Below, one piece after another: positions 16,685 through 27,579 of a DNA stretch of 64,000 nt. A model generated the notes under the pieces. It did no database searches and was not told the DNA's origin. It saw only the letters and a program-made list of their open reading frames with translations. A program made the translations under genes and the position numbers. The first letter of the stretch is position 1, and each line of letters opens with the position of its first letter. The stretch lies in the NCBI GenBank assembly GCA_029865945.1, contig JARXAH010000019.1:1-64000 (forward strand), given 5' to 3'. Source of the stretch: Bacteriovoracaceae bacterium (lineage in GTDB: Bacteria > Bdellovibrionota > Bacteriovoracia > Bacteriovoracales > Bacteriovoracaceae).

Positions 16685-16711
16685 TTAATTTTATAAAATT
16701 CTGGCCGATAG
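16685..16711 (+). promoter_or_regulatory. Sigma28 (FliA)-like promoter of the che operon
   Basis: TTAA (16685-16688), a 15-nt spacer, then GCCGATAG (16704-16711). Each element is one base off the sigma28 consensus TAAA-N15-GCCGATAA. The element ends 21 nt before the cheA ATG, giving a leader of about 15 nt with the AAGGA SD near its 5' end. A matching element with the same 21-nt distance lies before the sigma54 activator. Confidence 0.45.
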
Positions 16712-16732
16712 GCTCTCAAGGATAAATATTTT

Positions 16733-18829
16733 ATGGATGACTTGGATAAAGAGTTCAAGCAAGATTTTCTTACGGAAGCTAAGGAACTATTGGATAGTAC
16801 TGAGCGCTCATTTTTAGAATTAGAACAGCAACCTGATGACTCATCACTTATTAATAATATTTTTCGATTTGCCCACAACTTAAAAGGAACTTCTCGAGCA
16901 GTGGGCTTTGGCCAAATTGCTGAACTTACCCACAATGCTGAAAATCTTCTCTTGAAACTTAAGCAAGGAGAAATGAAAGCAAACGAAAGAACGGTCAATG
17001 CTTTATTATCCTTCAATGACAAAGTTAAAGAAATGGTTGAAGGCCTTCAACAAGACTTAGACAAACAATTTGAAATCGCTGGACTAGTTCTTGAATTAGA
17101 ACAAATTTGTAGTAACAAAATTGAAACAATTGAAAATGAAACGTCGGATGGAGCAGAAGGAACCGATTCCGATTCCGATTCCCCTGAGGAAAGTGAATTA
17201 GTTGATGTTGCCCCGCCTAGTGAATTATTTGAAGAACATCCCGAATCAACACCAGAGGCATCTCCAATCATTGATGAAGTACAACTTGCAGTGGATTACG
17301 AATTAGCTAAAAATGGACGACAAAATTTCGATTCTGATGACCATGATTTTCCCAAAGTTGCTGCAAGCGCTGACCTTGCGCAGTCCAATAAAGATGATCA
17401 AGTTGAAATTAATCCTGACGCATTAAAAGACCTTGAAGAGCTTTATGGAATTAGCAAAGACGCAGAAGTCACTGCGATAGTTAAAGCGGATGTCAAAGTT
17501 GAAGCCAAAGTTGACGCCCATATCAACGCCAGAGAAGAAAACAAAATATTAGTAAAACCGGCCGTAGCCAATGAAAGCACAAAAGTTGCTTCGAAAGAAC
17601 CTCTCAAAGAAAAAGAAAAAGAAAAAGAAAAAGAAAATGGCAAAGAACGAGAAGATGAAACGATTCGAGTTTCTCTTATGAGACTGGAAAAATTAAATGA
17701 CTTAGTAGGTGAATTAGTCATTCTTCAAAGTGTGGCAGAGCAGGCACTTCTGCAATCTAGTAACAGCAAAATTGCCAGATCACTTGGAAAATTATGTAAA
17801 GACATCCAAGACCTCTCCATGTCGCTTCGCATGGTACAAGTCGGCCCCACGTTTCAAAAATTAAACCGAACCGTTCGCGATACATCAAAATTATTAAATA
17901 AAAAAGTCGAGTTAAAAATTATTGGAGAAACCACAGAAATAGATAAGATTGTTCTAGAAAAATTAGGCGATCCACTCGTTCACATCATTCGTAACGCTGT
18001 CGATCACGGAGTAGAAACCCCAGACGTCAGATTAGCAAGCGGCAAAAATGAAACGGGTATTGTTGAAGTGATGGCGTTTCATGAAGGAAACTTTTTAGTC
18101 ATCCAAGTTACCGACGACGGAAAAGGAATTGATCCCAAAAAAATCACTCAAAAGGCCATTGAAAAAGGAATCCTTTCAAAATCCCAAACAATCACAGATC
18201 AGCAGGCCGTGGAATTAGTTTTTCATCCGGGTTTTTCCACTAAAGAACAAGTATCAGAAGTATCTGGCCGTGGTGTGGGAATGGATGTGGTCAAAACAAA
18301 TATTGAGTCTCTGGGTGGCAGCGTAAAAATACAATCTAGGCCGGGTGTGGGTTCGGCGATCCGCATGGTACTTCCGTTAACACTTGCCATCATCGATGGA
18401 ATGCAAGTCATTTGTGGAAATCAGCATTTAATCATTCCAAGAATTCAAGTTCACGAAGTAACAAAACTTGATCCTGCCAGGTTAACCATCATGACAGGAC
18501 GAACACCTTATTATCGTCTTCGTGATGAGGTCATTCCAGTATTTAATTTAAGTAAAGATTTTTCCATTCCTTCCAAAATGGAACCAGAGATAGCTTTAAT
18601 TGTTCGCACTGGAAAGGCAACCTACGCAGTCGCCATTAACGATGTTGAAAGACAACAACAAGTGGTGGTTAAACCGCCAACAACAGAAACTCTTTCCACC
18701 AAAGGAATCATGGGTACAACTATTTTAAGTAATGGATCTCCGGCCCTCATTTTAGATTTACTGGAAATTTATAAAAATAAAATTGCAAAAGAATCTATTT
18801 CATCTGTTAAAACAGCAGGCGCGGCCTAA
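16733..18829 (+). CDS. cheA: Chemotaxis histidine kinase CheA
   Basis: CheA autophosphorylates on the HPt domain and passes phosphate to receiver domains under receptor control. In its 698 residues: HPt (1-105) with H48 in AHNLKGTSR; a long acidic, low-complexity linker (about 130-310) with a KEKEKE run; dimerisation helices (LVGELVILQ); a HATPase domain with the N box HIIRNAVDHG, DDGKGID, FHPGFSTKE and GRGVGMDVVK; and a C-terminal CheW-like domain. I cannot see a P2 (CheY/CheB docking) domain; the linker occupies its place. It is the first gene of the che operon. Confidence 0.97.
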   Translation: MDDLDKEFKQDFLTEAKELLDSTERSFLELEQQPDDSSLINNIFRFAHNLKGTSRAVGFGQIAELTHNAENLLLKLKQGEMKANERTVNALLSFNDKVKEMVEGLQQDLDKQFEIAGLVLELEQICSNKIETIENETSDGAEGTDSDSDSPEESELVDVAPPSELFEEHPESTPEASPIIDEVQLAVDYELAKNGRQNFDSDDHDFPKVAASADLAQSNKDDQVEINPDALKDLEELYGISKDAEVTAIVKADVKVEAKVDAHINAREENKILVKPAVANESTKVASKEPLKEKEKEKEKENGKEREDETIRVSLMRLEKLNDLVGELVILQSVAEQALLQSSNSKIARSLGKLCKDIQDLSMSLRMVQVGPTFQKLNRTVRDTSKLLNKKVELKIIGETTEIDKIVLEKLGDPLVHIIRNAVDHGVETPDVRLASGKNETGIVEVMAFHEGNFLVIQVTDDGKGIDPKKITQKAIEKGILSKSQTITDQQAVELVFHPGFSTKEQVSEVSGRGVGMDVVKTNIESLGGSVKIQSRPGVGSAIRMVLPLTLAIIDGMQVICGNQHLIIPRIQVHEVTKLDPARLTIMTGRTPYYRLRDEVIPVFNLSKDFSIPSKMEPEIALIVRTGKATYAVAINDVERQQQVVVKPPTTETLSTKGIMGTTILSNGSPALILDLLEIYKNKIAKESISSVKTAGAA
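17606..17637 (+). repeat. Hexanucleotide repeat inside cheA
   Basis: About five tandem GAAAAA units (four perfect) encode alternating Lys-Glu in the CheA linker. The six-base period means gain or loss of a unit keeps the frame and changes only linker length. A shorter GATTCC triplet repeat lies about 430 bp upstream in the same linker region. Confidence 0.85.
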
Positions 18830-18843
18830 GGAAAGGATCAATT

Positions 18844-19305
18844 ATGTTTGATGAAAAAAAAGAAGTTAATAACATTGAGAAATATCTCTTATTTGAATTA
18901 GGCAAAGAATTATATGCCATAGAACTTTTAGAGGTAAAAGAAGTGATCACGCCGCCTGAAACAACTCCTATCCCTAAATGCCAACCTTACGTTTGCGGAC
19001 TCATGAATTTAAGAGGCTTAGTACTCACCATAGTTGACTTGCGAAAAAAATTAAATATCACGCAAGGTCCAATCACACCAGAGAATGCCGTCATTATTTT
19101 TGATTTAAAAAATAGATTAGTGGGCGGCGTCGTAGATTCAATCGTTAAGGTCATTAACTTGAAAAAAGATGCCATTAAACCCGTACCCGATGACAACACT
19201 ACCGGGCATCACCTGAAAGGCGTGATCGAACATGAAAACACGCTATGCTTACTAATTGACGCTAATAAAATGTTTGAATCTGTTCCGCAAAAAAAAGCAG
19301 CATAA
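18844..19305 (+). CDS. cheW: Chemotaxis coupling protein CheW
   Basis: CheW bridges receptors and CheA in the signalling array. The 153-residue protein is a single CheW SH3-like domain with the features FELGKELYAI, VKEVI, the GLMNLRG block and the DLRKKL segment. It starts 14 nt after cheA with an AAGGA SD, so the two are likely translated together. The C-terminal tail ends PQKKAA. Confidence 0.97.
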   Translation: MFDEKKEVNNIEKYLLFELGKELYAIELLEVKEVITPPETTPIPKCQPYVCGLMNLRGLVLTIVDLRKKLNITQGPITPENAVIIFDLKNRLVGGVVDSIVKVINLKKDAIKPVPDDNTTGHHLKGVIEHENTLCLLIDANKMFESVPQKKAA

Positions 19306-19352
19306 ACAATATAAACTAGTATAAAAATTTAAAAACTAAACGGAGCAAAGAA

Positions 19353-21785
19353 ATGAAATCGCTTAAAACAAAAATCTTAGTTAGCCTGCTTGCTGTTGGT
19401 ATCATCCCTTTCAGTCTTCTAGGTTTTTTTATTTATCGCAATTTTTCGGACTCTCTCATGGATTCACATTACGAGAAATTAAAATTTATCAATGATTTAA
19501 AAAAGAAAGAGGTTACTGAATTTTTTAAAAAGCTAAGTGATGAAACCTTCCTCAACACTGAAAACCCAACCACGGCCGAAGCAATAAAAAACTTATCCGA
19601 ATCTTTCTATAAATTTGGTTCTGAAACTGGATGGTCGCAGGAACTAAATTCTGAGTATGAAAAAGAATTAAAAAAATATTACACCAACGATTTCAATACC
19701 GAATTTAAAAAGCAAAATGAAAATGAAGAATCTAAATCCGATGAGGTATTCAATCAACTAAAGCGAGAAAACTTAGTCTTACAATATAGCTACATTGCCA
19801 AAAATAAAAACCCGCTTGGCTCAAAACATCTTTTGTCCCACGATGACCTACCTACAACTTACAATAAATTTCATCAAAAGTATCATCCATGGTTTAGAGA
19901 GCAGCTAGAGCGGATTGGTCTATATGATATTTTTCTAGTCGATCTACAGGGATCGGTAGTTTATACCGTATTTAAAGAACTCGACTTTGCAACCAACTTG
20001 AAAACAGGCCCATATGCTAAATCATCACTTGCAAAACTTTACGAAGAAATTTTAAAGCAAGACCCCAGCAAACCTAAAACTTTATTTGCTGATTACGAAA
20101 ATTATTACGCAAGTTACAATGGGGCCGCATCATTCATGGGAGCTCCTATCGTTGAAAATGGAAAAATAATTGGTGTCTTTGCCGTGCAAATCTCCTTTGA
20201 TAAAATCAACGAACTTACTGGCTTTATTCCCAAGGGAATTACCGACATTGAAACACTCATGGTCGGAACTGACTTCAAATTAAGAAGTGATACCCTTTTC
20301 AATAAAGATACTTTTAACGTGAAAAACTCTTTCCGCTATCCAGAAAAATACTCTATTAAATCAAAAGAAATTGATCAAGCCATCACAGGAAATTCCTTAA
20401 ACGGAAGACGAATCAACCTTCGCGGGCATGATGTGATTTACGCAATTGATTCACTCGATATTTTTGGCAACAAATGGTCGATTGAAACTAACCACAAGGC
20501 CGAAGCGGCGCTTGCCTCCCTTGTTCACGTACAAAAAATCATCTACCTTTTTGCGGCCGTCATCTTTTCAGTAATTCTCTTTCTTGCTCTTTTTGTTTCC
20601 AATCGTTTTTCTAATCTTTTAAGATCCATTGCCACTAGATTAAAAAATGAAATTACATCCTTAACTATCAATGCCAAAAAACTTTCCGAATCTTCATCTA
20701 GTTTATCTGCTGCCACGACAGAACAATCGTCGAGCTTACAAGAAACAGTGGCGTCTATCGATGAAATTTCTGCCATGGTCGCAAGGAATTCTGATAGTGC
20801 AAATCAAGCTACAGAAGTTTCTGAAAAATCTACGAAGGCCGCGCAAAAAGGAAAAGAAAAAACAGAGGAACTAATGTCATCCATTAATCAAATTAAATCT
20901 GGAAATGATGAAATGATGAAAAAAATGCAAAGGTCCAACGACGAAATTTCTGAAATAGTAAAAGTTATTCAAGATATTTCCCAAAAAACTAAAGTAATTA
21001 ACGATATTGTTTTCCAAACTAAGTTACTTTCTTTTAACGCATCGGTTGAGGCAGCGCGAGCAGGTGAGCACGGAAAAGGTTTTGCTGTTGTAGCTGAAGA
21101 GGTTGGGAATCTCGCTTCGATGTCTGGGAAGGCGGCCAACGAAATTAGCGAAATGCTAGAAAGAAGTGTGAAGAAAGTATCTTCAGTTGTAGATGGATCT
21201 AAATTATTGATGGATGACATGATGAAAGATATTAAATCCAAAGTGGATGTGGGAACGAAAAATGCCTCTGAGTGTTCAGTTGCACTAGAAGAAATTTTAT
21301 CAAACGTTTCTGTTGCCAATGAAATGGTACGAGAAATTGCGACAGCGTCAATTGAGCAAACTACTGGCGTTAAAGAGATCAATAAGGCCATGTCGGAACT
21401 TGATAAGGTAACCCAATCTAATAACTCCGTCTCGCAAGAAGTCTCTCTATCTGCTAATGATTTAAGCGGACAATCAAGCAGAATTGAAAAGATTACTAAC
21501 GAATTAAGTTTTTTTGTTGATGGGAATATTGAGGTTCGTGAATTTAAAAATCATGATTCTCATTCAGAAAAATCTAACAGGAAAAATTCGACCTCTTCGC
21601 ACGGAAAATCAGAAATGGGAAAAGTGCTTACACTAACCCCTAAACAGGGAACGAAAAAATCCTTAAATCCTGCACCCAATCATGCTTCAGGAGCAAAAGT
21701 TTCGTCTGAAAAAGACAGTATCAATTATGCAGTGGTAGAAAATTCAACGCCGGAACATAATGATCCACGTTTCGAAGAAGTATAA
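19353..21785 (+). CDS. Methyl-accepting chemotaxis protein with dCACHE-like sensor
   Basis: This is an 810-residue receptor: a first membrane segment at about 8-27, a large periplasmic sensor (about 30-390) of double-CACHE type (the FADYENYYASYNGAASF region is typical), a second membrane segment at about 396-418, then the signalling coiled coil. The conserved hairpin tip, with EAARAGEHGKGFAVVAEEV, is near residue 565-585. No HAMP domain is visible between the second membrane segment and the coiled coil. A polar tail of about 85 residues ends in DPRFEEV, possibly an adaptation-enzyme tether. The ligand is unknown. Confidence 0.92.
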   Translation: MKSLKTKILVSLLAVGIIPFSLLGFFIYRNFSDSLMDSHYEKLKFINDLKKKEVTEFFKKLSDETFLNTENPTTAEAIKNLSESFYKFGSETGWSQELNSEYEKELKKYYTNDFNTEFKKQNENEESKSDEVFNQLKRENLVLQYSYIAKNKNPLGSKHLLSHDDLPTTYNKFHQKYHPWFREQLERIGLYDIFLVDLQGSVVYTVFKELDFATNLKTGPYAKSSLAKLYEEILKQDPSKPKTLFADYENYYASYNGAASFMGAPIVENGKIIGVFAVQISFDKINELTGFIPKGITDIETLMVGTDFKLRSDTLFNKDTFNVKNSFRYPEKYSIKSKEIDQAITGNSLNGRRINLRGHDVIYAIDSLDIFGNKWSIETNHKAEAALASLVHVQKIIYLFAAVIFSVILFLALFVSNRFSNLLRSIATRLKNEITSLTINAKKLSESSSSLSAATTEQSSSLQETVASIDEISAMVARNSDSANQATEVSEKSTKAAQKGKEKTEELMSSINQIKSGNDEMMKKMQRSNDEISEIVKVIQDISQKTKVINDIVFQTKLLSFNASVEAARAGEHGKGFAVVAEEVGNLASMSGKAANEISEMLERSVKKVSSVVDGSKLLMDDMMKDIKSKVDVGTKNASECSVALEEILSNVSVANEMVREIATASIEQTTGVKEINKAMSELDKVTQSNNSVSQEVSLSANDLSGQSSRIEKITNELSFFVDGNIEVREFKNHDSHSEKSNRKNSTSSHGKSEMGKVLTLTPKQGTKKSLNPAPNHASGAKVSSEKDSINYAVVENSTPEHNDPRFEEV

Positions 21786-21814
21786 ATTCATACAAAAACG
21801 AGGATTGATTATCT

Positions 21815-23575
21815 ATGTCGACTGCAAAAAAATTAATTAGTTGGGAAGAATTAATATCAAAGGTGTGTCAGTTTGCCGCCGAAACCAGTGCCAATGTTTT
21901 CAGCGAAAAACAACTCCCCATGGTTGAATCAAGATTGAAACGAAGGCTATCCGAATTAAAACTATCTGGACCCGATGAATACCTAGATTACTGGAATAAT
22001 AATACCGCATCAGAAAATAAAATTATTTTAAGTTTACTGACAACTCACTTTACTTCTTTTTTTCGAGAATTCATGCACTTTGAGTGGATCGGTAAAAATT
22101 TGAGCTCCATCATAAAAAATGTAAAAGCTGAGGGCCGCTCAAAAATCACTATTTGGTCAGCCGCATGCTCAAAGGGCCAAGAGGTATGGTCGCTAGCTAT
22201 GTGGTTTCAAAACCAAATGGAACAACAAGAAACAAAAATTTCTTGGGAAATATTTGGATCTGACATTGATGAGCATTCCGTAAAAGAAGCGATGAATGGT
22301 GTTTATCACAAGCGGGAGTTAGAAACAGCTCCTAGAAAATTATGGGAAAATCATTGGGTACAAGGTAAAGCGGAACTAGCAGATTGGTATAAAGTCAAAA
22401 AACAAATTCATGAAAAGGCGACGTTTGGTTCCTATAACCTTATCGATTTAAAAATGCCGGCCCAACAAAAATTTGATCTGATCATGTGCCGCAACGTGCT
22501 CATTTACTTTGATAAAACAAACCAGTCTAAGGCCGTTAAAAATATGCTCTCCCACCTCTATCCTTCGGGAGTCTTGATTACTGGCCTATCGGAATCCTTG
22601 ACCGGATCGGAATTAGATTTAAGGTCCCTATCTCCCTCTGTGTATCAATTTAAATCCTTTGTTGATTTACTACCCAAGGTGGCGTCAGAATCCAAAAAAT
22701 CTACTTCATCTCCTTCACTCAACACTCTTCCTGTTCCTCTCAAAGTATTTTGCGTTGATGACTCTCCCACTGTCATTAAATTGCTAAAGCATTTATTTCA
22801 AGATCAAGATTTTACGGTTGTGGGAACAGCAAGCAACGGGCAAGAGGCGCTTGAAAAAATTCCCAAGTCTAACCCTGATGTCATCACCCTTGATATTCAC
22901 ATGCCCATCATGGATGGCCTAACATTAGTTAAAAATTCCGATTTAGCAAGCAAGTATCCCATCGTGGTTGTAAGCTCCGTGCAACGAGATGATCAGACTA
23001 TTATTGGGCCTCTCTTTGAAAAAGGCGTAAAAGATTTTGTTGAAAAACCCACACTAGAAAATATTAAAATAATTAAAGAAGAGTTGTTTCAAAAATTAAA
23101 AATGTCTTGGCTAGATAAATCCAATAAATCGACCGCCTTAAAAAGCGATAATTCTTCTAACGCTAGCACAAAACAAAAAGATCTCCCTCCTATTTACATT
23201 ACCGTTAACGAAAATGAGGCGAGTAAAATATTTGATTTTACTTCCCAAAATTTACAAAACACCTTAACGCTTTATTTTATAGTTGACACAAAAATTGATA
23301 ACTTAAAATCAACTTGGAATCTTTATAAAAATAAATTTTCCCCTAAATCAAAAATTATTTCCTACTCAGATTACAAAAATGAATTGCAACCAAAAATTTG
23401 GATTCATACAAAGAATTCTCCTGAAGAAATTATTCTTAAGAATGCATCTGAGCACGACTTTATCATTGCCGAAGAAACTAATGTCAACTCTAGTGAAATC
23501 AAAAAAATTGCGTTCGATATTTCTCCTCTCACTTCCATACCTTATCTCATCAATAAGTATGGGGAGGTAAAATAG
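21815..23575 (+). CDS. cheR: CheR methyltransferase fused to a receiver domain
   Basis: Residues 1-280 are CheR, which methylates receptor glutamates with SAM: the N-terminal helical domain, the TTHFTSFFRE block, IWSAACSKGQE (SAM loop), GSDID and CRNVLIYF. Residues about 308-430 form a response-regulator receiver with DD near 315, phospho-acceptor D360 in LDIHMP and a late VEKP lysine. The last 145 residues match nothing I recognise. The stop codon (TAG) is followed at once by the TTG start of cheB in the same frame. Confidence 0.93.
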   Translation: MSTAKKLISWEELISKVCQFAAETSANVFSEKQLPMVESRLKRRLSELKLSGPDEYLDYWNNNTASENKIILSLLTTHFTSFFREFMHFEWIGKNLSSIIKNVKAEGRSKITIWSAACSKGQEVWSLAMWFQNQMEQQETKISWEIFGSDIDEHSVKEAMNGVYHKRELETAPRKLWENHWVQGKAELADWYKVKKQIHEKATFGSYNLIDLKMPAQQKFDLIMCRNVLIYFDKTNQSKAVKNMLSHLYPSGVLITGLSESLTGSELDLRSLSPSVYQFKSFVDLLPKVASESKKSTSSPSLNTLPVPLKVFCVDDSPTVIKLLKHLFQDQDFTVVGTASNGQEALEKIPKSNPDVITLDIHMPIMDGLTLVKNSDLASKYPIVVVSSVQRDDQTIIGPLFEKGVKDFVEKPTLENIKIIKEELFQKLKMSWLDKSNKSTALKSDNSSNASTKQKDLPPIYITVNENEASKIFDFTSQNLQNTLTLYFIVDTKIDNLKSTWNLYKNKFSPKSKIISYSDYKNELQPKIWIHTKNSPEEIILKNASEHDFIIAEETNVNSSEIKKIAFDISPLTSIPYLINKYGEVK

Positions 23576-24943
23576 TTGTCCTCAAATTTAACGCTTGGAA
23601 AAATTATTTCTGAAACGGCAGGTAAGTGGAAAATCGACTTAATTCCTGATTATGTTTTTGTTTGGAAACAAGGCCCAAAACCTCAATCTATTTTTTGCAA
23701 AAACTTAGACGAAATACCAACGACTTGGTGGTCAGGCGAACCTTGCAAGGTATTTTATTTTCATCAAAATAAAAATCTCGTTTCTTCACAAAGCAAGCTG
23801 CCCCCTGGATCCAAGCTCATTGCTTATCAATTAACTACACCACGAGCACAAGTGGAGCTTGATTTTTCTAGCAATGTGGTACGTTTTCAAGGAAAGCGTA
23901 CCAAACGGGTCCTCATGGTGGAAGACTCGCCAACCATGCGCAAAGTATTAAAGCATATTTTTTTGCAATTCCCAGATTGGGAATTAATTTCAGAATCAGC
24001 AAGTGCAAAAGATTTATCAGAGCAGTTATTAATCCATCTTCCTGATCTTGTGACCTTAGATTTACACTTGGGCGATTCCAATGGAATAGAAATCATGCAA
24101 AGATTTTTATCTCCTAAAAAAATTCCTACGATACTAATCACTTCGCAATCTATTAAAGATGGAAATATGGTCATGGAAGCTCTTAGTGCTGGTGCCATGG
24201 ATTACCTACAAAAGCCTCAAACTAATAATTGGAATGAATTAAAGGATGCGCTTTTAGAAAAAATGAATCTCATTGTTAATGCAAAATGGCTCAATAAATC
24301 TAGCTTCAAAAATGAAATTAACTCGCAATTTAAATTACAATTTTCTGATTTTGACCATACCATTATTGCCATAGGATCCTCAACCGGAGGCCCACAAGCT
24401 CTTCAGGAAGTTTTACAAAATTTGCCCGATGAAATTCCTCCTATTTTAATAACACAACATATACCGGCCGGTTTTTCGAAGGCATTGGCCGATCGCCTAA
24501 ACACTCTTTGCCCTTTTACCATCAAAGAAGCGCAGGATGGTGAAACGATATCTCGCAATGTTGTGTATATTGCTCCAGGTGATAAGCATATGCTTATTAC
24601 GCAGGATGGAACTCGCATAGCTCTAGACGACTCTCCACCCATTAACCGATTTCGCCCCTCGGTGGATGCCATGTTTCAGTCTATTTCTCTTCGATGTAAA
24701 AAGAAAATTGTTGGAGTCATATTAACTGGCATGGGCAAGGACGGTGCGCAAGGTTTGCTTCAATTACGAAACCTCGGTGCACTTACCATTGCTCAAGACG
24801 AAGCTACTTGTGTAGTTTATGGAATGCCTAAAGAAGCGATCAGGCTTGAAGCTGCTCAAAGTATTACTCCCATTCAACATGTTGCCAATGAAATTGTTAA
24901 GCTTGCCAACCTCAAAGTTTCAACAATGAAGCTGGCAAAATAA
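23576..24943 (+). CDS. cheB: Protein-glutamate methylesterase CheB
   Basis: CheB demethylates or deamidates receptors when phosphorylated by CheA. The start is TTG, directly after the preceding TAG, with GGGGAGG 8 nt upstream. Residues 1-110 are an unrecognised extra region. A receiver domain (about 112-235) has phospho-acceptor D162 in LDLHLGD. The methylesterase domain (about 260-445) has the catalytic triad S269 (GSSTGGP), H295 (QHIPAGF) and D389 (GMGKDGAQG). At 455 residues it is about 100 longer than usual CheB because of the N-terminal region. Confidence 0.94.
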   Translation: MSSNLTLGKIISETAGKWKIDLIPDYVFVWKQGPKPQSIFCKNLDEIPTTWWSGEPCKVFYFHQNKNLVSSQSKLPPGSKLIAYQLTTPRAQVELDFSSNVVRFQGKRTKRVLMVEDSPTMRKVLKHIFLQFPDWELISESASAKDLSEQLLIHLPDLVTLDLHLGDSNGIEIMQRFLSPKKIPTILITSQSIKDGNMVMEALSAGAMDYLQKPQTNNWNELKDALLEKMNLIVNAKWLNKSSFKNEINSQFKLQFSDFDHTIIAIGSSTGGPQALQEVLQNLPDEIPPILITQHIPAGFSKALADRLNTLCPFTIKEAQDGETISRNVVYIAPGDKHMLITQDGTRIALDDSPPINRFRPSVDAMFQSISLRCKKKIVGVILTGMGKDGAQGLLQLRNLGALTIAQDEATCVVYGMPKEAIRLEAAQSITPIQHVANEIVKLANLKVSTMKLAK

Positions 24944-24952
24944 ACGATTCAA

Positions 24953-26530
24953 TTACGAAACTTTCTTAATTCTCTTATCTAGCCCATACTTATCAACTTT
25001 CATAATTAAACTCGCTCTACTAATATCAAGCTCTTTAGATAAGCGCGATTTATTAAAATTGCAGCGCTTTAATCCTTCCTTAATCATCAATGCTTCTAAT
25101 TCTTCTAAGGCCTCTTTCATTTTTCCGTTTATATTTACCCCAGGTATGGAAGAGACAGAGGTTGCATTAATACCACCCACTTTATCAATAATTTTCGGAC
25201 TTATCATATCTGGTGTAATTAATTTTTCATCACCCGCTAAAACAACTAAACGCTCAACTTCATTGGTAAGCTCACGAATATTTCCTGGCCAAGTATAATC
25301 CATCATTTTCTCTAAAGTCTTTTTCGAATATGTTTTTAGTTCAATATTTTTTTCTTTGCACTTTCGCTCTAAGTATTCTTCCATCAATAGTGGTATATCT
25401 TCGCGCCGATCTCTCAATGCTGGCAAAGTCACATTGATCACATTTATTCGGTAATATAAGTCTTCTCGAAATTCACCTTTTGCAATCATTTCTTTAAGCG
25501 GCTTATTCGTAGCAGCGATAATTCTTACGTTAACTTTTTTCGGAGTTGTCGCACCCACTGGCAAAAATGTACCTTCTTGTAAAATTCTTAGCAACTTCAC
25601 TTGCATACTTAAAGTTGTATCTCCAATTTCATCTAAAAATAAAGTTCCCCCGTCTGCCGTTTCAAATAATCCTTTCTTATCTTTTATGGCCCCCGTGAAC
25701 GATCCTTTCACATGACCAAATAATTCTGAGTCGAGTAAATTGTCATTGAATGCAGAACAGTTTTGCGCCAAAAATATTTTGTCTTTTCTTGGGGAATTAT
25801 AATGTATCGCTTTTGCAACTAATTCTTTTCCAGTTCCATTTTCACCTTGGATCAGAATGGTAGATTCGGTTGTTGCAATTTTTTCCAGCAATTTATATAT
25901 TTCTTGCATTCGTTGAGATTTACCAATCATCTGGTGATATCGATATTTATTGGCAACTTCAGAGTGCAAATCGTTTATCATTTGCTCCCTCTTTACTATT
26001 TCTTCCTGGTAAGTGGTTACTTCCTCTGCATACAGGATAATTAATTCCTTGAGATACTCACCTTGAATAATTTCTAATTTTGATAATTTTTTTACGCATA
26101 AATCAGCTTCCTCTACTAGAAATCCAACCTGCATTAATTTTTGAACCACCTTCTGTGAATCTTCGTTGGTAAAAAGTCCGTTGGTGTAACAAAATCCGAC
26201 GACATATCCAATGATCCCTCCATCAAAACTGACGACAGAAATAATTGATTTCACAAACGGAAATGAAGTATGAAAATCGACAGATTTCAGTCCACTTTCT
26301 CTTAATGCAAAAATACCTTTTTCTATATCCTCTTGAAGAACTTGCCTGCCTTGCTGGGACGACATGAGCATCTTAAAAAAATAGGAGTAATATTTGAAAC
26401 CTGCTGTTTCGTGTGAGGGCAGCTTGCCAAATTCATCTGTTAACACCAAATCTAATTGAAACCATCTTCCAATTATTTCTTCAAGTTTTTGAATAACGTG
26501 CAAATCTTTAATACGCGACATGCTAAACAT
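24953..26530 (-). CDS. Sigma54-dependent transcriptional activator
   Basis: This 525-residue enhancer-binding protein would activate RpoN promoters. Residues 1-190 form a sensory region (GAF/PocR-like by impression) without a receiver aspartate, followed by a coiled coil. The AAA+ domain (about 200-440) has Walker A GENGTGKE, Walker B GGTLFLDEIGD, sensor ATN and the arginine-finger region REDLYYRI. The sigma54-contact loop reads GSFTGA where GAFTGA is usual. A Fis-type helix-turn-helix ends the protein. GGAGG lies 5 nt before the ATG. The gene converges on cheB with 9 bp between stops. Confidence 0.93.
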   Translation of the reverse strand: MFSMSRIKDLHVIQKLEEIIGRWFQLDLVLTDEFGKLPSHETAGFKYYSYFFKMLMSSQQGRQVLQEDIEKGIFALRESGLKSVDFHTSFPFVKSIISVVSFDGGIIGYVVGFCYTNGLFTNEDSQKVVQKLMQVGFLVEEADLCVKKLSKLEIIQGEYLKELIILYAEEVTTYQEEIVKREQMINDLHSEVANKYRYHQMIGKSQRMQEIYKLLEKIATTESTILIQGENGTGKELVAKAIHYNSPRKDKIFLAQNCSAFNDNLLDSELFGHVKGSFTGAIKDKKGLFETADGGTLFLDEIGDTTLSMQVKLLRILQEGTFLPVGATTPKKVNVRIIAATNKPLKEMIAKGEFREDLYYRINVINVTLPALRDRREDIPLLMEEYLERKCKEKNIELKTYSKKTLEKMMDYTWPGNIRELTNEVERLVVLAGDEKLITPDMISPKIIDKVGGINATSVSSIPGVNINGKMKEALEELEALMIKEGLKRCNFNKSRLSKELDISRASLIMKVDKYGLDKRIKKVS

Positions 26531-26551: not shown

Positions 26552-26578
26552 ATATCGGCAGTCATGAAATTTTATTGA
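26552..26578 (-). promoter_or_regulatory. Sigma28-like promoter of the sigma54 activator gene
   Basis: On the minus strand: TCAA (26578-26575), a 15-nt spacer, then GCCGATAT (26559-26552). Each element is one base off the sigma28 consensus. It ends 21 nt before the ATG, exactly the distance seen at cheA. The core GCCGATA is identical at both sites. Confidence 0.4.
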
Positions 26579-26612: not shown

Positions 26613-27161
26613 TTACCAATTTTGTGGGCCAATAAATTTTTGCATTAGTTGACCATTTTGATTAAACGTAAATGTTTCCGGTACCTTGGATACTCCAAAC
26701 TTTAAATACGCTTCCTCTTCAGTGTCGAGTAATAGTACAGAATAATCTTTATTAATTTTAATTTTACTTAAAAATTGCTGTGTTTTCTCTTTAGAGTCAT
26801 CTACTGCAATCAATAAAAGTAAATTTTTTTTGGGCCCAATCTTATTTGTAGTGTCTATATATTCAACTAACTTAGGTAACTCAGTTAAACAAGGTACACA
26901 CCATGTGGCCCAAAAGTGAACATAGATAACATCAGCTGAATTTATTTTGCTTTTTAGTATTTGCCCTAAGGTCGTACTTCTATTATTTTCTTCTTCAATA
27001 AAAGAAGCAGCTTTAAATACTTCCGATGTAATTTTTGATGAAATCCCATCGCTTACATTTTTGTTTGGATTTGAGCAAGAAAAAAGAATTTCAATTAAAA
27101 TGATAACTATCGAATTACGAAACAAGTGTTGAGCAAGTGATTTTCTACCAATCGTATTCAC
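26613..27161 (-). CDS. TlpA-like thioredoxin-fold lipoprotein
   Basis: The 182-residue protein has a hydrophobic N-terminus ending in a lipobox (ILFSC, Cys at residue 29), then a TlpA/ResA-type redoxin domain with WATWCVPC. A cis-proline region (VPETFTF) follows later. Such proteins are membrane-anchored periplasmic thiol reductants, often for cytochrome c maturation or disulphide repair; the specific partner is unknown. The protein stops soon after the last strand (GPQNW), so the C-terminal helix is short. It lies 61 bp beyond rplQ on the same strand with no terminator visible between them. Confidence 0.82.
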   Translation of the reverse strand: MNTIGRKSLAQHLFRNSIVIILIEILFSCSNPNKNVSDGISSKITSEVFKAASFIEEENNRSTTLGQILKSKINSADVIYVHFWATWCVPCLTELPKLVEYIDTTNKIGPKKNLLLLIAVDDSKEKTQQFLSKIKINKDYSVLLLDTEEEAYLKFGVSKVPETFTFNQNGQLMQKFIGPQNW

Positions 27162-27222: not shown

Positions 27223-27579
27223 CTAGTCTACTAAACTAAGGTAAGCCATCTTAGCAGCATCCCCAACTCTAGGCTCAGCGATACGGACGATTCTCGTGTA
27301 TCCGCCATTTCGTGTAGCTACTTTCGGCCCAATATTTGTAAATAAAGCACTCACAGCAGCCTTGCTATTTATTTTTGAGTAAACAAGTCTTCGATTGGCT
27401 ACTGTATCTGTCTTAGAAATCGTTATAAGTTTTTCAACAAAAATTCTAAGCGCTTTACACTTGGTAATTGTTGTTTTTAATTTTCCATGACCAATAAAAT
27501 CAGCAGCTAGACCTGCGATGATTGTATGTCTCTGAGTTCTTTCCATGTTTAGACGGTATTTATGATTTTTGTGTCGCAT
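27223..27579 (-). CDS. rplQ: 50S ribosomal protein L17
   Basis: The 118-residue protein has the L17 N-terminus RHKNHKYRLNM and the KLKTTITK block. It sits near the exit of the peptide tunnel in the large subunit. It is the last gene of the alpha operon, 99 bp after rpoA, and ends the ribosomal super-cluster. No intrinsic terminator is visible behind it, so read-through into the TlpA-like gene is possible. Confidence 0.97.
   Translation of the reverse strand: MRHKNHKYRLNMERTQRHTIIAGLAADFIGHGKLKTTITKCKALRIFVEKLITISKTDTVANRRLVYSKINSKAAVSALFTNIGPKVATRNGGYTRIVRIAEPRVGDAAKMAYLSLVD

Follow-up and report, generated by a model that had tools for sequence, protein, structure and literature searches.

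Probable FliA promoters before the che operon and a sigma-54 activator gene in a Bacteriovoracaceae genome

A 64-kb stretch (hereafter the window, analysed over its whole length) of a genome of the Bacteriovoracaceae group (3.08 Mb in 103 contigs) carries a chemotaxis operon and the gene of a sigma-54 activator in convergent orientation, with cheB ending at 24943 and the activator gene at 24953. Nearly the same short sequence stands at the two opposite ends of this pair of transcription units, about 10 kb apart (Table 1). As the genes converge, they have no promoter region in common. Are both sites promoters of the flagellar sigma factor FliA (sigma-28), and does their resemblance reflect joint control of the two genes, as the initial annotation proposed?

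Table 1. Features of the locus, in window coordinates
Feature	Coordinates	Strand	Details and basis
Probable FliA-type promoter of che operon	16685..16711	+	TTAA 16685-16688, N15, GCCGATAG 16704-16711; 21-nt gap to ATG at 16733; start predicted at about 16718
cheA	16733..18829	+	698 aa; Hpt, dimerisation, HATPase and CheW domains (Pfam)
cheW	18844-19305	+	Rest of che operon (18844..24943)
Chemoreceptor (mcp)	19353-21785	+	Rest of che operon
cheR with receiver domain	21815-23575	+	586 aa; rest of che operon
Receiver-cheB	23576-24943	+	Rest of che operon
Sigma-54 activator	24953..26530	-	525 aa; Pfam, motif, structure model
Very probable FliA-type promoter of sigma-54 activator	26552..26578	-	TCAA 26578-26575, N15, GCCGATAT 26559-26552; 21-nt gap to ATG at 26530; start predicted at about 26545
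Thioredoxin-like (TlpA-type) gene	26613..27161	-	Upstream neighbour of activator, conserved by synteny
rplQ-like gene, end of ribosomal operon	27223..27579	-	Named from sequence of orthologous neighbours; synteny in 50 loci

The motif positions and the 21-nt distances given in the initial annotation proved exact when checked on the sequence, and both sites have a TAAA-like -35 box and a GCCGATAA-like -10 box about 15 nt apart. The pattern TYAA-N15-GCCGATA has exactly two matches in the 64 kb, namely these two, each directly 5' of a gene; the mean expected by chance in the window is 0.08, and none of 100 shuffles reached two.

The initial annotation made its reading depend on a fliA gene, and the genome has one: a single protein encoded on contig C23 scores 267 bits against TIGR02479 (curated cut-off 189.6). 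The gene lies directly behind flhF-like and flhG-like ORFs, with an flhA-like ORF also preceding (all read from sequence); other sigma-like genes are present in the genome as well. A two-block profile was trained on the flagellin upstream regions of 13 relatives, with cheA and activator regions kept out of the training. It converged on CTAAAG-N14-GNCGAWAAGTT, whose register agrees with that of the two window sites and in which the classical FliA element (TAAA-N15-GCCGATAA) is recognizable, followed by a conserved tail. The motif had been expected before flagellar genes, and it does precede the flagellins of relatives and, among the five flagellin-family genes of this genome, those on C11 and C37, which show TYAA-N15-type, FliA-like spacing to TCCGAT; two others, L026 and L028 on C95, have no clear FliA site by eye and may depend on a different promoter or on read-through. 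Two further sites on C23 were noted. About 200 nt before fliL (L017:8480-8790), a FliA-like site overlaps a TATAAT-like box (TGAATTTGTATAATAATGGCCGATGA). The top profile score among 138 upstream regions of the window and C23 (18.8 bits) belongs to L018:38-1672 (C23:60038-61672, minus strand), where the site lies 9 nt from the start of a long ORF whose N-terminus resembles an export signal.

Applied to the activator, the flagellin profile exceeds the 99% shuffle level upstream of 47 of the 53 orthologues, the window's own included, where the site scores 12.6 bits (shuffled 99% level 9.5) and the region ranks third of the 138. Upstream of neighbouring genes in the same loci the same 99% value is exceeded in 2/50 cases for rplQ, 0/48 for tlpA and 0/39 for mmdA. 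The element can be seen by eye at nearly all activator orthologues, as TGTCAAGTTT...TGCCGATAAGTTAGAC or TCTAAAG...TGCCGAAAAGTTAGACA, about 30-101 nt from the start codon, and a sigma-70 promoter was sought for the activator with none found at the right place. We conclude that the activator site is very probably a FliA promoter, retained across the Bacteriovoracia. At the activator promoters (L127-L178) conservation runs past the -10 as AGTTnnACA, beyond that of the flagellin promoters; this may be a start-region element or an operator.

The activator itself combines a PocR-like sensory domain (residues ~1-190), an AAA+ domain (201-367; PF00158, 236.7 bits) with the Walker motif GENGTGKE and a GSFTGA loop, and a Fis-type HTH (475-515); no receiver domain was found with Pfam. 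The loop reads GAFTGA in 32/52 orthologues and GSFTGA in 18/52. Matches to PF10114 (PocR) were obtained for 11 of 12 family members (best 5e-6), with one member, inspected in detail, at 16.8 bits, below the cut-off of 23.9. The AlphaFold model of the N-terminal domain is confident and of mixed alpha/beta type, and its nearest PDB folds, at low scores, are IclR/CodY ligand-binding domains. Orthologues occur in records named Bacteriovoracaceae, Halobacteriovorax, Bacteriovorax and relatives.

The cheA site was examined with the same profile. (The operon behind it encodes a CheR methyltransferase fused to a receiver domain, adjoining a receiver-CheB.) At 5.7 bits the site falls between the 90% and 95% shuffle levels and ranks 17 of 138, with a -35 that is weak against the flagellin profile (TTAA; ATTAAT). 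This modest score would suit a look-alike that arose by chance, FliA dependence then being confined to the activator and cheA being read from upstream or from a promoter of the sigma-70 type; immediately 5' of the cheA -10 there is a TATAAA-like sequence, and the preceding ORF ends 84 nt before cheA, with no terminator found between. We regard such an arrangement as unlikely, however. Exact consensus matches so near to starts are rare, and before cheA in relatives one again finds FliA-like sites with this register: 6/12 upstream regions exceed the 95% shuffle level, although the 12 include pairs from one genus and are not fully independent. In these regions a CGAT- or CGAA-type box recurs with weaker -35 boxes, and in the matches that hold up the box lies about 31-55 nt from the start. 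A sigma-70-like site was sought upstream of cheA on the plus strand and none was found at the right place, and the FliA targets of B. bacteriovorus include chemotaxis genes (PMC3627812). The cheA site is therefore still a probable FliA promoter, less certain than that of the activator.

As to joint control, the equal 21-nt distance, taken in the initial annotation as a sign of it, is a coincidence, because the distance varies widely among activator and cheA orthologues alike. Control through adjacency was rejected too: most loci have the order rplQ-tlpA-activator-mmdA-accC, and among some 50 loci examined, che genes lie near the activator in none of the others, the che operon adjoining it in this genome only, where mmdA-accC are found on the far side of the operon. 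What stands of joint FliA control of two flanking genes is thus that both very probably have FliA promoters; the adjacency is peculiar to this genome and therefore points to common membership of a regulon rather than to a special link between two neighbours. In many relatives (L141, L144, L149, L152, L133 and others) an inverted repeat is conserved between activator and mmdA (tagcctcctaaa ... tttaggaggcttttttt ATG), and the Shine-Dalgarno sequence of mmdA falls within its 3' arm. The repeat resembles a terminator overlapping a ribosome-binding site and has a TATAAT-like box in its loop; it is absent before mmdA in the window.

How widely the motif is distributed was asked of the whole genome by searching for patterns and by examining short stretches. 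The consensus put forward in the initial annotation, TAAA-N14-16-GCCGATA, gave 8 matches, several of them within genes, and is too E. coli-like for this group. TYAA-CCGATA pairs at FliA spacing are concentrated between genes. Counted plainly over spacings of 10-22, TTAA or TCAA followed by CCGATA has 21 matches at N16 against a mean of ~14 at other spacings, a mild excess over chance that alone proves little. The spacing count was replaced by a position test, which classified about 140 of 195 matches as outside or inside long ORFs. Outside lie 11/21 of the N16 matches, 7/11 of the N17 matches and 17/108 of those at other spacings. With N16 and N17 pooled, a choice made after the counts were seen (N17 being the published spacing), 18/32 against 17/108 gives a Fisher p of about 1e-5; for N16 alone p = 0.003. 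The count is conservative, because the cheA site was scored as intra-ORF owing to an antisense reading frame. The genes behind the intergenic N16/N17 sites, judged from their N-termini, encode PAS- and GAF-type signalling proteins, kinases, proteins that bear a lipoprotein or export signal and, on C87, a chemoreceptor. By this test, FliA-like sites precede many non-flagellar genes in this genome.

Class III flagellar promoters of E. coli, those of chemotaxis genes included, have the form TAAA-N15-GCCGATAA, and the -35, the spacing and the -10 are in the same register here; unlike the E. coli set, the set in this genome extends to genes for lipoproteins, exported proteins and kinases and to that of a sigma-54 activator. 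In the flagellar hierarchies of Vibrio (FlrA/FlrC) and Pseudomonas (FleQ/FleR) a sigma-54 activator stands above FliA. FliA and sigma-54 activators would likewise share one circuit here, with FliA instead placed above the activator, which lacks a receiver domain and a demonstrated flagellar role. The nearest parallel lies in another lineage of the phylum: in Bdellovibrio bacteriovorus, TTAAG-N16-CCGATA was found in 92 of 140 mapped attack-phase promoters, and FliA was proposed as a global attack-phase regulator whose scope takes in chemotaxis and surface proteins (Karunker et al. 2013, PMC3627812). That promoter is nearly the same as ours, the window sites being one base shorter from TTAA (N16 to CCGATA), and that regulon likewise holds chemotaxis, surface-protein and transcriptional-regulator genes, among the latter bd0931 and bd1891 (PMC3627812). 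FliA also drove the flagellin and tad promoters when tested heterologously in E. coli, and could not be deleted (PMC5430801). As far as the promoter motifs tell, the present finding is the same phenomenon as the attack-phase role of Bdellovibrio FliA, in a related group. The proposed tie to the flagellar programme is supported as to FliA and too narrow as to scope, given the much wider set that FliA controls in Bdellovibrio (PMC3627812).

With fliA present, flagellin-profile hits at activators throughout the group and more weakly at cheA, and FliA-spaced motifs concentrated between genes, the FliA reading of both sites is upheld, and we consider it highly likely that they are FliA promoters within a broad regulon of the Bdellovibrio type. 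Could the conserved element serve another sigma factor of the sigma-28 or ECF kind, or be an operator? Further sigma-like genes exist in the genome, and conservation past the -10 of the activator (AGTTnnACA) is more than a minimal -10 needs; this is nonetheless improbable, as flagellin promoters of the same family share the -35, the spacing, the -10 and AAGTT, which points to the same sigma factor, and the consensus is the published FliA one. Chance similarity at both sites, for which the mild genome-wide enrichment of the bare pattern might be cited, can practically be dismissed, with two exact matches directly before genes where 0.08 were expected and with conservation across dozens of genomes refuting it at the activator.

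On the FliA reading, FliA would direct RNA polymerase to TYAA(G)-N15-(G)CCGATA, and transcription would start a few bases downstream, leaving short leaders. The che operon and the activator would then be made in the motile phase; for the activator, which lies behind rplQ, its promoter would provide motile-phase expression apart from the growth-phase ribosomal operon. Through its PocR-like ligand-sensing domain the activator may respond to a small molecule by opening sigma-54 promoters. No target could be named, since a search for sigma-54 promoters on the main flagellar contig and in the window gave one weak match, and no credible sigma-54 site was found between activator and mmdA in relatives. 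Perhaps, and we offer this only tentatively, FliA sets up a second-tier switch across the Bacteriovoracia. A ligand-sensing sigma-54 activator, shielded from the ribosomal operon and restricted to the motile phase, would then allow a set of sigma-54 genes to be opened when a metabolite is sensed, as might happen when the cell turns from searching to growth.

The conserved FliA promoter of a PocR-like sigma-54 activator at the end of a ribosomal operon may be new; no description of it was found in the literature searched, which covered few subscription journals. At the level of sequence, the global role of FliA is extended from Bdellovibrio to the related Bacteriovoracaceae. Dozens of genomes conserve the activator along with its FliA promoter; it could carry a signal from the motile to the sigma-54 programme and offers itself directly for experimental work in those members of the group that can be cultured. 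If the second-tier switch is true, the order in which sigma-54 and FliA usually stand in flagellar circuits would be inverted in these bacteria.
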